From Brachycybe producta (Eukaryota > Arthropoda > Diplopoda > Playtdesmida > Andrognathidae): DNA of 64,000 nucleotides. The stretch is taken from assembly GCA_036925085.1 (NCBI GenBank), contig JAUPFP010000095.1, positions 436,501 to 500,500 of the forward strand, in the 5' to 3' direction. Below the pieces are notes generated by a model. That model had not been told where the DNA came from. It made no database searches and saw only the letters and a list, made by a program, of their open reading frames with translations. Shown here piece after piece: positions 40,611-56,530 of the stretch; position 1 is the first letter of the stretch, and every line of letters begins with the position of its first letter. The position numbers were made by a program, and so were the translations under genes.

Positions 40611-40726
40611 ATTGAAACGCAAAAAAAAAAAAAGGAAAAGAAAAAATAGGCGTTTTGTTTCTGAAACTTCTTTAAATCCGATTCCTGATGATGATGATGA
40701 TTTCGTAAATCACGATTAAAAAAACA
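40611..40726 (+). other. 5' UTR part of the Cys-rich gene's first coding exon (predicted acceptor at 40610)
   Basis: A pyrimidine-rich stretch ends in TTTTTGCAG at 40610. The following 116 bp are non-coding in the frame of the gene, with a stop just before the ATG at 40727. This fits a spliced 5' UTR, with the promoter probably in 38-39 kb. Confidence 0.5.
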
Positions 40727-43450
40727 ATGTCCGTCAGAGTGAAACGAGAACCCGGATCAGCTCGAACTCGTATCTGTTACGTGTGTGGTGAATCGGGAGC
40801 GATTTATCCACTTTACTGTCGTCCACGAGAGAGAGGAAGTTATTTTCCTTTCTTAGAACAACATGAAATACCGCAAGGAGCCGATCGACCATCAACTCCA
40901 GAAGGAATCGTCGCTTCATGCACAGTTTGTTTCTCGTTTTTAGAACAACAATGGGAATCGTACGAGCGATCGCGAACACCACATTCCAAGAGACTTTATT
41001 GGTTAAAGAGAGTGGACAATGGTCACTATATCGGAGCGGAAATGAGATATCAAGGAGAATACGCGTCACAAGTGATCGGTGTTTCACCCGAACCTGGAGG
41101 AACCGGAGGAGGATCGGGATCAGGTCATCACGGTCAGTGTTTAGCAACTTCTTCTCATTCCAGGACAAAGTCGCAGTCTTCTTCTTCTGGTCGTAACGCA
41201 AGAGGAACACCGATAAAATCGACAACAGCGGGAAGTTTAGTAACGGGTTCAGACGAAAGATTTCTTCCGAATACGACAGATTCGCGATCGGTTATGTATT
41301 ACGCTACGGAAGAAGATTCTCGGATCGCTTCTGCTGCATTATTGGACTTGAGTAAAGAGGGAATCGTGAGTAATACACGGAGAAGTTCACGATCGAGCGA
41401 AACTCCGATCGATTCTCGTACGAACGAGTCTCCGGCGCCGCAGCCGCCATCAAATAGAACGTCTTCGATCGGTAACGGTGCTTTAGATTTAAGTATGCCG
41501 GATAAAAACGCAACTACCGAAGTTTGTTATCTGTGCGGTGACGAATGTCCACGCGGAACTCTCGTTAGCGTCTATGCAAAACCGATAACTAACTGTCCGT
41601 TTTTTCCCAGTCTTACTTCGCATCCGAGACCGAGTCGTTCTCATCCAATGAGTCCATCTGGATGCGTACAAGCTTGCGGACATTGTCATCAACATTTATT
41701 ACAACAGTGGGATAATTTTCAGAAACAAAACGTTTCGCATGCAGATAGACATTATAGGTTACGAAAACGTTCTTTCGTTTCTTCTTCGCCTCTTCTTCAT
41801 TCATCTTCGTCTCCGACGCCGTTGTCGATCAATCAACCACCGACGAGATTCGTTTGTTTTCTCTGTGCAGGTGAATTCGCCTTTAATTTAAGACATTTCT
41901 TATATTCAGGATCAAATCCCGAAGGTGAACCTGCTTGTCCGTTTCTGGAAAGAGTCAAAGTACCGTACGGAGCTCATCCGCTTTCGGCCACCGGTCAAGC
42001 GATCGTTTGTGCCGGTTGTTACGCATCGGTTCATAAACAACGACGCGAAACAACGGCCGATTATTCATCGTCGTCATCTCGTAAGAACAGCGAAGTTCGG
42101 GATCCGAATATAAAAGAATCGACATCGGTTTGTCATTCGTGTCGTTTGTTGTTTTCGCGTTTTCATATTGTTTATCTCGATTTTGTACCGACGAAAGAAC
42201 TCGGACGACCTTTTTATCCGTTTGCGTTAACTGACGATGAGAAGGTTCATGGAGGAGGCGGCGGCGGCGTTCCCGTATGTCTTTCGTGTCATGCTGTGTT
42301 TAAAGCGCAGTTCGAAGCGTTCGAAATGGATCGTGTGCCACATTCGCATAGATCGTACGTTCTTCCTTCGCGTCCTTCTGAGCCAAATGTTGTCGATCCG
42401 CGGCCACCGTCACGTCCGAGACGAATAAGTCGAATCGAATCAGATACTGGAGGAACAATGACGACGACGACAAATCTCGATGTGGCTTTACGTATTCAAG
42501 TACCTACTCCAGACCATGATGCGGGTATTCCTATCGGTGGTGTTGGAACTTCGTTACTGGCAACCGTTTCTAATAATTCGGATTCTCCAATGAGTAACAT
42601 TTCTGTCGGTCAACATAATCGATCCGGTTTCGGACCTTTCGGAAACGCTCTCGATCTTAGCAGCGGATCCGGACGTGGGGGAATCGCGAGAACGGTTCCT
42701 ACTCATCCTCCTCCTTCGTCTCCTCCTCCTCTCGGCCTACCATCGTTATCATCATCGTCATCTTCCAATAACTTTGGAAACAGAACAAATTATTTGCCAC
42801 CTTCATCTTCTTCTACGGCTACCGTTTGCTACATGTGTGGGTTACACATCAAGAACAATAAAACGCATTCGGTTCGTTCGTATCCGATGAAATCCACTTC
42901 GATTTCATCCTTAGACAATGGAGATCAAAATCCTTCTTCACTCATTCCGTTCTTCCCTTTCATAACTTATCATCCGGCTCCTCTCGATTCGATTCCGCCT
43001 TCGGACGACGGAACGGTTATCGCTTGCACCTTTTGTTATCATTCTCTAATGGTACAGTGGTCCGCTTACGAGATGTCTCGTAATGCGTACGATCGGAATC
43101 CTTGGACGAGAACTTACGACTGTCACGATTACGTCTGTTATGTTTGCGGGGTTACGACGTATCGTAAGAGGGTTAAAGCGATTCGTGTTTCCGATTTTCC
43201 GTTTCTCGTCGAACATCCTCGACCTCAGGGAAGTCTCGTATTGGACGGTGGCGATGCTGTTACGGTGTGCCTCATGTGTTATGATACTTTACACGATCAA
43301 TGGAAAGATTTCGAACGAATGAAGGTTCCGGTTGAACTTCGAAAGTATAATTGGATTGCAGCTCCACCGCCACCGGAAGACGAAGAACCACCTCCGCCGC
43401 CGCCACCACCACCACCTGCTACTCAAGTTGGATCTAATAGAAAGAAATCG
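40727..43450 (+). CDS. Multi-module Cys-rich (CxxC...CxxC) protein with ALDLS motifs, main exon
   Basis: A 908-codon exon ending at donor TCG|GTGGGT. I do not recognise a named orthologue. It holds six copies of one module: CxxC, then 42-63 residues with a PF(F/L/Y)P or PFLE patch, then CxxC, often followed by QW..(Y/F)E and an R.Y.L tail. Cys pairs are at 17/20-65/68, 267/270-317/320, 377/380-428/431, 469/472-518/521, 701/704-767/770 and 804/807-848/851. Four Cys per module suggests one zinc ion each. Linkers are Ser/Pro/Gly-rich with ALLDLS (204-209) and ALDLS (252-256, 641-645), resembling the PxDLS motif bound by the CtBP corepressor. A Pro run (about 888-897) precedes the donor. Nuclear corepressor or chromatin-scaffold role is inference. 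Codon use is more GC-rich than the surroundings, as expected for a real exon. Reading past the donor would add about 30 residues before a stop. Confidence 0.85.
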
Positions 43451-43917
43451 GTGGGTTGTTATGTCTTTATCTTTTTTATTTGTCGTTCTTGTTTTACTTT
43501 TAGCACACTTGATGGAAAATGTGTTAAAGGTATTTTCTTTTGATAAAAATAAGAACCAAGCTTAACTAACTTAACATCTTTTTCTATTTTTAGCCGTTTT
43601 TTATTATTATTATCATTTATTTATAATCCGGTTTTTATTTTCCTTGTAACAGAGACACTCATTTACAGGGGTTGTAAGTTGTAGAAACTTGTTTTCCTCT
43701 TGTTATTGTTTTTAATTTACTACGAATCTAATTTTCTTTTGGCCTTGAGGAACCGTTTAACTTGGTTTGTAAATTATATAACTTAACATAGTGTGTGTAT
43801 ACATATAGATATAAAAGGCACAGTAAGTAAGCACTTTTAGCTCATTATTATGGGTGGTGGTTGTTGTTGTGTTGCAAGAGATGACAGATTTTAATTCCGC
43901 TCACGGGACACCGTTAA

Positions 43918-54541: not shown

Positions 54542-55157
54542 AAAGGTGGATTCACATTAGTGTTTTTACACACTATCCGGTTATAACACGGTCCGGTTAT
54601 GGATACTGGTCATTTTTTTAATGAAAAACTATGATCTTAAGGGTGTTCGCCATTGTGAACGCCGACTTTCTAAATACATTGAATTTCAATTGAAAATCTA
54701 TACATGTAATACGATATTTGACCACAGTCAACAGGACCCTGCGTTGACAATGTAAGTATGAATCAGCCCGTACTTAGCAATTAGTTATGAAGTGTAGGAC
54801 GACGTCACGCAACACACCTTGCAACATATTTGTGTGTTTTTGAGATTAGGACAGAGTTGTATTTTTGTTGAACAAATGTTGTAGGATTGATGAAGGTGAT
54901 TGATTGGTATGCTAATTTACTGTTGATTCACACTATACAACCACTGCGGTGTCTTGTTTGTTGTCCGTGGTCAAATATTGTACTACATGTAAGGATTTTC
55001 AAATGAAATCCAATGCATTTAGAAACGAGCTGGTGTTCACACTGTGGGATCATTTGTATTTCAATAGAAAAATTTGAATGAACCGTACCCAGTCCGTGTG
55101 TACCTGGACCCATCTGGCTATCCGAGCCTTTCGATTTTGAAAGGTCTAGTGTGGAAC

Positions 55158-56032
55158 CTTAGACTATTACTCTACTGGACTGGCAACTCCCTATCTTCTA
55201 GATGTTAAAGCGTTAAAAGCATGTTCATAGGCAAAATAAGGCAAAGTGACGCAGCTCCGCCTGGTGGCATTATTTTAAAAGAAAATCGTTGGATAGATTT
55301 TTTTTTTTTTTTTTTTTTTGCAAACGGGAAGACATTGGGGGTGAATCATGTACTGTATGGTAAATTTTAGTTTTTTCACGTTTCACTGGATTTTCCAATT
55401 TTAATTCTATTCTAGGAATCCAGTAAAATGCGGATAAAAAAGTAAAATGAATTTCCATATGTGATATTCTGCCGTGAATTTGTGTAAATCTTAGTGAATC
55501 TCGTAAATGATTTTTTTTAATGTCGGCCCAGTTGTCGTTTCGTCTCCTAAGCAAAAAATGGTCGGAAAACGTTGTTGTTACGGTGTTTGTGACTCGCGTT
55601 TTCCTGATAATAGACCACAACCAAAACAGGTAACATTTTACAAATTACCTAATCCTAAAAAGGAACCCTTAAAATGTGGAAGGTGGGTTGCTGCTTGCAG
55701 CAGAAAAAATTTTACAATAGCTAATGTGAAGTCATTTACATACGTTTGTGGGCTACATTTTGTTGGTGAAAACGGACCCACGCGTGAAAATCCTGACCCT
55801 TTACCAGCAAGTTATTCACTGTAATTCTTCATCGACCATACTTTTTATAATATATATAAAAATCCACCCTATATAACTACAAAATAAACTCGTCCAAAGT
55901 TTTGCTTTGACAGTAATGTTCATATACCATAGTCCCGCTAGAGGCGCCACTTCAAAAACGACGTCACGACGATTGAAAACTGTCCAGCACAAAATTTCGG
56001 GAGTTGCCAGTCCAGTAGAGTAATAGTCTAAG
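55158..56032 (+). mobile_element. P-superfamily-like DNA transposon, internally deleted, carrying a THAP domain
   Basis: An 875-bp element with 34-bp perfect terminal inverted repeats beginning CTTAGACTATTACTCTACTG and ending in the complement. It is flanked by a perfect 7-bp TSD, GTGGAAC (55151-55157 and 56033-56039). The only recognisable coding content is the THAP zinc finger at 55558-55824. P-element transposases begin with a THAP domain and make 7-8-bp TSDs, so the superfamily call follows from both features. The catalytic domain is absent. A poly(T) run is at 55298-55319 and an AATAAA follows the reading frame near 55883. Confidence 0.82.
55558..55824 (+). CDS. THAP-domain protein (truncated P-like transposase N terminus)
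   Basis: An 88-residue frame that is essentially one THAP C2CH zinc finger, a DNA-binding domain shared by P transposases and host THAP proteins. Zinc ligands are Cys6/Cys7, Cys11, Cys64 and His67 (FTYVCGLHF). The conserved KCGRWVAAC tryptophan is at residue 43, and the Pro-rich end ENPDPLPAS is typical. It stops directly after the domain. An in-frame ATG at 55507 would add 17 residues. The reading frame is intact, and it sits inside a transposon with fresh-looking ends. It could act as a dominant repressor by binding transposon ends, as the deleted KP form does in Drosophila; that is inference. It could equally be an unexpressed remnant. Confidence 0.75.
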   Translation: MVGKRCCYGVCDSRFPDNRPQPKQVTFYKLPNPKKEPLKCGRWVAACSRKNFTIANVKSFTYVCGLHFVGENGPTRENPDPLPASYSL

Positions 56033-56530
56033 GTGGAACAACCCTTAGCCTACCAGAAATGCGCGAGGCTCACAAACCCCACCATACGTATAAAGCCCAT
56101 GGGCTTTTTTTAAGAAAATTGCCAACCCAGCTCATGGGTGCAATGCCGTCTTAAAAATTACTGGGGCCCTGGGCTAAGTAAAAAAACGGGGCCCACAATC
56201 CCAAACACAAATGTTACATTTAAACATAGATACAGAATGTTAAGTTAAGAAATGAGACCCTGAGCTACAACACAGCTACCGCAGTACTACCATCTATGTT
56301 TTACAAATTTCCCCACGCGTGGGGCTGGGCTGTGTGTGCGTGGGCTGGGTTCAATATGCGCTGGGGCTAAAAATGGCACTTCATGGGTAACGTTTACGTA
56401 CGATTCTTGAATCTAGAGGACCTTTTTAGTCGCGCCACTCAAGTGTATTTATTTCAAAATGAATGAGGAAAAAAGGTCAAAACAGACTTCATCATGTAGT
56501 GACGTAAACATTCTTATACAATATTATCTT

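Follow-up and report, generated by a model that had tools for sequence, protein, structure and literature searches.

A recently mobile, probable P-superfamily deletion derivative with an intact THAP frame in the genome of Brachycybe producta

We find that the 875-bp element at positions 55158-56032 of the window, the 64,000-nucleotide stretch of Brachycybe producta contig JAUPFP010000095.1 that was analysed, is a recently active P-superfamily deletion derivative with Galileo-like 7-bp target-site duplications (TSDs), of a kind already known from KP. The best explanation, to which we give a probability of about three in four, is that the element is a recently mobile, non-autonomous derivative that arose by internal deletion from a P-superfamily DNA transposon, with its THAP frame intact most likely owing to the youth of the burst. 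Based on this explanation, the transposase of a longer relative would bind the element ends and move the element, a central deletion would have taken all that lay between the THAP exon and the final ~214 bp, with the stop codon supplied by chance at the junction. The 88-aa THAP protein, if translated, should bind the family's own ends, and it could weakly compete with the transposase, like a minimal KP protein without the dimerisation region.

The element and its target sites

The inverted ends, the 7-bp duplication and the THAP frame lie as first described (Table 1), and the original prediction of 34-bp ends and of a 7-bp duplication GTGGAAC, both perfect, is borne out. The inverted-repeat search gives 36 nt rather than 34 because two flanking bases pair as well, and at a minimum length of 12 the 34-bp terminal inverted repeats (TIRs) are the only inverted pair in the element. 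The end pattern has two matches in the window versus 0.00 expected by chance, and the search for subterminal motifs returned a single 9-mer direct repeat, as a raw occurrence. Elsewhere in the window, at 40709-43543, there is a 944-codon open frame with repeated Cys-X2-Cys motifs, which is probably a host gene exon.

Table 1. Features of the element, the window copy being locus L001 (window positions)
Feature	Position	Strand	Basis or remark
Left target-site duplication GTGGAAC	55151..55157	.	Perfect copy of the right one
Left terminal inverted repeat, 34 bp	55158..55191	+	Perfect pairing with the right end
5' noncoding region	55192..55557	+	In L019 too, partly in other short classes; SNPs diagnostic of subfamily A
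THAP open reading frame, 88 codons + TAA	55558..55824	+	ORF listing, Pfam, alignment
THAP core, element positions 486-661	55643..55818	+	Absent from the ~700-bp class, which has ~22 nt instead
3' segment from the deletion junction (CTGTAATTC...)	55819..55998	+	Source of the stop codon
AATAAA hexamer	55883..55888	+	Begins 59 nt past the stop; putative poly(A) role
Right terminal inverted repeat, 34 bp	55999..56032	-	Perfect pairing with the left end
Right target-site duplication GTGGAAC	56033..56039	.	Perfect copy of the left one

The predicted intact 88-aa THAP domain with a stop directly after it is likewise present, with 35.7 bits against the Pfam THAP family PF05485 (cut-off 23.9, E=1.6e-8). 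The nearest solved structure by sequence is THAP domain-containing protein 1 (E=0.0004), and an AlphaFold model of the THAP domain built with 3 sequences is poor (mean pLDDT 36). In an alignment of the window frame with two longer relatives, L019 and L009, the residues C6, C11, C64, H67, P31, W43, F68 and P83 are invariant, and these eight can be assigned as zinc ligands and as further residues that define a THAP domain, after the list in the consulted part of PMC4168063 (the papers are cited here by PMC number, from extracts of their text). An N-terminal THAP domain, which is a trait of the P superfamily, is therefore what the predicted product of the element carries. An in-frame ATG at 55507, 17 codons further 5', would give a possible 105-aa form. 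The TAA comes from the deletion junction and not from the THAP exon, the frame ending about one codon beyond the last homology to the THAP exon of L019.

Among the fetched loci 46 pairs of ends could be formed, two of which, the window copy and L002, have common flanks and do not count as independent. In 41 of the 46 the 7-bp duplication is perfect, and in 45 it agrees in at least six of seven positions, while a perfect 8-bp duplication occurs in none; the one pair below 6/7, L007, has TIR-like sequence in its right flank. Over the other 45 pairs the target site is near GTTTAAC, with G in 30, T in 44 and T in 29 at positions 1-3, and A in 42 and C in 32 at positions 6-7, which agrees with the 7-bp GT...AC palindromic consensus of the Galileo type. 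P elements make an 8-bp TSD (extracts of PMC1562414 and PMC7776569), and Galileo makes mostly a 7-bp one with the consensus GTATTAC/GTANTAC (extract of PMC4168063). Since Galileo, a member of the P superfamily, mostly makes 7 bp, the 8-bp length is not defining for the superfamily.

Copies, longer relatives and descent

When up to 3 mismatches are allowed, the 32-bp end pattern matches the 295-Mb genome of 442 contigs 603 times, 310 times forward and 293 times reverse, and its reversed control has 0 and 0. The whole-element DNA search scored 40 of 1345 first-look candidates, and its copy counts are therefore lower bounds. The THAP protein search scored 150 of 156 candidates; of the 144 matches listed, 103 (by hand count) are confined to residues 1-29. 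Sixty-one loci were fetched for comparison.

The window copy belongs to subfamily A, which has at least 13 copies of 867-879 bp that are 97-100% identical to it. L002 and the window copy have 99.85% identity across 3.9 kb, flanks included, and hence are either duplicates or one insertion seen in two haplotypes. The other short copies are of several classes. Of the 12 older short copies fetched with a THAP core, the frame is broken or interrupted in 11: class B (L015-L017 and L035-L039) has a one-base frameshift in 7 of its 8 copies and a 3-bp deletion near the start in 7 of 8, class C consists of L014 and L040, and L012 and L013, outside both classes, are frameshifted or interrupted. The remaining copy, L016, belongs to class B by its junction, is free of the B frameshift and has 82 codons open, which stop immediately short of the final conserved proline. 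In the more numerous ~700-bp class, of which 21 copies were fetched, THAP codons 1-29 are followed by some 22 nt of different sequence and by the same 3' segment as in the window element. Both ends are common to subfamily A, classes B and C and the ~700-bp class, and the junctions are unlike, a pattern that points to several deletions of a longer parent or to one deletion that was reshaped later.

The original prediction was to fall if THAP frames were broken in most copies. Family-wide this is the case, the frame being cut to 29 codons or broken, but it does not hold for the youngest burst, where 11 of the 13 subfamily A copies have an intact frame (among them L030, with a minor in-frame change) and L033 and L034 have one frameshift common to both, nor for L016. 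That the frame is a THAP exon domesticated by the host and not the product of a transposon, for which only the intactness of the frame speaks, is hardly credible with near-identical copies that are dispersed and carry TIRs and TSDs; at this locus it is ruled out by the copy pattern.

Two further observations were made on the architecture of the loci. At L006 (1342-2715) a subfamily A copy is nested in an older family copy, about 77-79% identical. At L014 (2306-5511, 3.2 kb) and L020 (1462-3189, 1.7 kb) the extra length appears to be an insertion of other sequence, with perfect 7-bp duplications outside.

The descent of the element can be followed through longer relatives. L019, on contig C16, has the same 5' end as the window element with a damaged TIR, and its DNA is 89% identical over element positions 8-661. 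Its THAP domain is 91% identical to that of the window, and its exon extends beyond the stop of the window frame. Two further ORFs of L019, an acidic one of 192 aa and a middle one of 228 aa, are open like its THAP. Homology is then lost, with neither a catalytic domain nor a second TIR in the next 8.9 kb, and the matches in L061, downstream of L019, are all at chance level. The middle ORF matches no Pfam family and has 50-53% identity with parts of L010 and L009. L010, in turn, has TNP-like RNase H N (3e-20), GTP-binding insertion (1e-16) and RNase H C (3e-5) domains. Its own THAP is divided among reading frames and shows 67% identity over part of its length; the 34-bp TIRs of the family are absent from L010. 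A genome search with the catalytic part of L010 gave 33 matches: the query locus, a fragment with 56% identity and 31 more with 26-40%.

On the relatives themselves it is noted that L010 (1879-3614; C1:12496378-12498113) is a P-like transposase whose catalytic stretch is open for 325 aa, and that L011, 16 kb away, is a 99.95%-identical 4-kb partial duplicate of it. L019 (2794-5425; C16:2920793-2923424) and L009 (4419-6489; C68:644418-646488) are each a single locus with THAP, linker and middle ORFs open and no catalytic domain found, and both lose the P-like frame near the point where L010 goes on; between their middle regions dN is 0.35 and dS 0.91. L019 and L009 may be relics, or they may be genes of the 66-kDa/KP type that derive from P.

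For the parent, nine zero-mismatch ends on contigs C1-C20 with no listed mate or nearby THAP match were followed over about 9 kb each (L021-L029). Four of them (L024, L026, L027 and L029) turned out to be short copies with both ends, the other five (L021, L022, L023, L025 and L028) have no second end within the fetched stretch, and none of the nine has a P-protein match at 1e-4. The search with the end sequence, proposed as a check of the original prediction, thus gave no copy with a catalytic domain, and no full-length copy joining the family TIRs to such a domain was found among the loci and searches of this assembly. For this reason the parent is approached via a chain of homology, and P-superfamily descent through the window element, L019 and L010 is well supported by sequence comparison. 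The reading of the element as a P-like deletion derivative that retains just the THAP part is supported through the L019 chain.

It would be very improbable, by contrast, that the family is another THAP-bearing transposon outside the P superfamily, such as Kolobok. Kolobok has a TTAA target duplication, while the TSDs of this family are 7 bp and not TTAA. The lack of the perfect 8-bp duplication usual for P in all 46 pairs, together with the lack of a catalytic domain linked to these ends, would agree with such an origin, but 7-bp GT...AC duplications are known within the P superfamily from Galileo (extract of PMC4168063), and the middle region of L019 is homologous to that of L010 with its TNP-like P domains.

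Mosaic ancestry of subfamily A

The flanks of subfamily A agree with the ~700-bp class against class B and L019 at element positions 77-80, 103 and 140-141. The insert at 77-80 is present in 13/13 copies of subfamily A, 19/21 of the ~700-bp class and 1/8 of class B, and position 103 is C in all 21 copies of the ~700-bp class and T in 7 of the 8 class B copies, with one gap. One locus, L041, combines the core of the ~700-bp class with A-type flanks, as judged by the markers tested between 44 and 349 and at 729-756, 818 and 830, and is without the deletion at 689 and the G at 747 of subfamily A. In the flank tree subfamily A is placed beside L041, inside the ~700-bp class, the node that joins the two having support 1.00 and being the only strong one, with the deeper nodes weak.

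The core gives a different picture. Subfamily A has T479, A486 and T575, as in L019; L009 has T at 479 and 575 and C at 486, and L010 has G at 486. The A state at 479 and 575 is probably ancestral because L009 has T there too. The other short copies, where readable, have C479, G486 and C575, with three exceptions (T479 in L051 and L058, and T575 in the 5' piece of L014, at the edge of homology), and the ~700-bp class and class B have the same states at 479 and 486. Subfamily A therefore differs in ancestry between its THAP core and its flanks, as observed at three core sites, and these unlike histories imply recombination between family members. A longer copy may have given subfamily A its THAP back, or conversion may have removed the THAP core from L041. 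Note also that L027 and L039 are further mosaics, partly A-like.

It may be, at somewhat less than even odds, that subfamily A is a direct, fresh deletion of an autonomous copy with A-type flanks, with L041 a later conversion product and THAP never recaptured. L041 is the sole copy that fits the exact pattern of A flanks and ~700-class core genome-wide, donors of the ~700-bp class are abundant and the further mosaics exist, all of which speak for this origin. However, it still needs recombination, because subfamily A and the ~700-bp class share derived flanks and the ~700-bp class and class B share the core states 479 and 486, and the flank tree places subfamily A beside L041 within the ~700-bp class, though with strong support only at the node that joins these two. 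We consider it quite unlikely that a THAP-less ~700-bp element regained THAP by gap repair and gave rise to the 13-copy burst, so that a putative family-limiting 88-aa repressor would have been lost and re-created by recombination.

Selection on the frame and a possible repressor

Substitutions were counted over 10 distinct intact copies of subfamily A, leaving out the duplicate L002 and the frameshifted L033 and L034, and the TIRs and the poly-T tract among the noncoding sites. There are 11 events in 264 frame sites versus 16 in 504 noncoding sites (Fisher p=0.54). Of the frame events 9 are nonsynonymous and 2 synonymous (binomial p=0.72 versus the neutral share), five of the 11 cluster in L030 and may be one event, and codons 6, 11, 64 and 67 are unchanged in all 10 copies. 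Against the consensus, all 13 copies have 17 nonsynonymous and 6 synonymous differences, with 29 in 7433 noncoding sites. The comparison of dN with dS among copies, named as a check when the element was first described, hence returns young frames that look neutral, with no sign of selection on the THAP frame of the short element, albeit at the low power of 11 events. Between subfamily A and L019, dS is 0.18 and dN 0.05, and this ratio of 0.28, which fits constraint in the longer lineage, is not evidence for the short element because the path includes the longer, presumably coding lineage. The frame is most likely intact because the burst is young, and not through selection.

The original prediction went further in suggesting a self-encoded repressor. 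P elements with an internal deletion are seen as putative repressors where they retain the DNA-binding domain (extract of PMC12393704), and a Galileo THAP fragment of about 90 aa binds Galileo's own ends in vitro (extract of PMC3688188), by which precedent the 88-aa THAP could be able to bind DNA. A KP-like self-regulator, in which the putative 88-aa protein would bind subterminal sites and block the transposase and intact copies would be favoured, is nevertheless unlikely in our view, though it earns some weight. The interrupted transposase and the retained DNA-binding domain are both the marks of putative P repressors in PMC12393704, and the in vitro binding by Galileo THAP alone (PMC3688188), the intactness of the young frames, the unchanged codons 6, 11, 64 and 67 and the open older copy L016 would be consistent with it, as would a THAP core whose ancestry is unlike that of the flanks common to the THAP-less class and which retains states lost in nearly all other short copies. 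On the other side, frame changes within subfamily A are at least at the noncoding density and mostly nonsynonymous, the dimerisation region is absent, L016 is without the last conserved proline, and the more numerous ~700-bp class has only 29 THAP codons. The AATAAA 59 nt past the stop is in 13/13 copies of subfamily A, 0/8 of class B and 2/21 of the ~700-bp class, which would agree with an expressed frame; but since L041, without the THAP core, has it too, it need not relate to the frame. The intact young frames, the open L016 and the states of the A core that are largely lost elsewhere would also fit a functional protein, while a putative repressor role is not supported by the substitution data.

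The preferred reading, a young deletion derivative, has its closest parallels among known P-superfamily systems. KP and other deleted P elements of Drosophila melanogaster result from internal deletion and keep both ends and the N-terminal DNA-binding domain (extracts of PMC7776569 and PMC12393704). The same is found here, where both ends and the DNA-binding domain are kept and the transposase is interrupted, the deletion being deduced from L019 and the other classes. The KP protein has 207 aa (extract of PMC7776569) versus the predicted 88 aa of THAP only; it dimerises, by a title cited in PMC7776569, whereas the window frame has no dimerisation region; and P elements and KP have 8-bp TSDs versus 7 bp here. 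Galileo, of the P superfamily in Drosophila, has a THAP-bearing transposase and a mostly 7-bp TSD, as here (extract of PMC4168063). Compared by TSD, THAP and TIR length, it differs in its TIRs, which in Galileo-G are 1.2 kb (extract of PMC3688188) versus 34 bp, and the long, internally repetitive TIRs of Galileo are absent from the window element. The P-MITEs of Anopheles gambiae are short and numerous P relatives with the 5' and 3' parts of the parent, as here, for which repair from an ectopic template has been proposed, but they have 8-bp TSDs and an interior unlike any P, whereas here the TSD is 7 bp and the interior is a THAP coding frame (extract of PMC1562414). Among titles and openings of abstracts no published THAP-only P derivative was found, a scope that does not establish its absence.

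The family combines P-type protein relatives, Galileo-like 7-bp duplications and short ends, and recombination among its deletion derivatives shuffles coding cores. It provides a natural test case of whether THAP alone, without dimerisation, suffices to restrain a P-like family.
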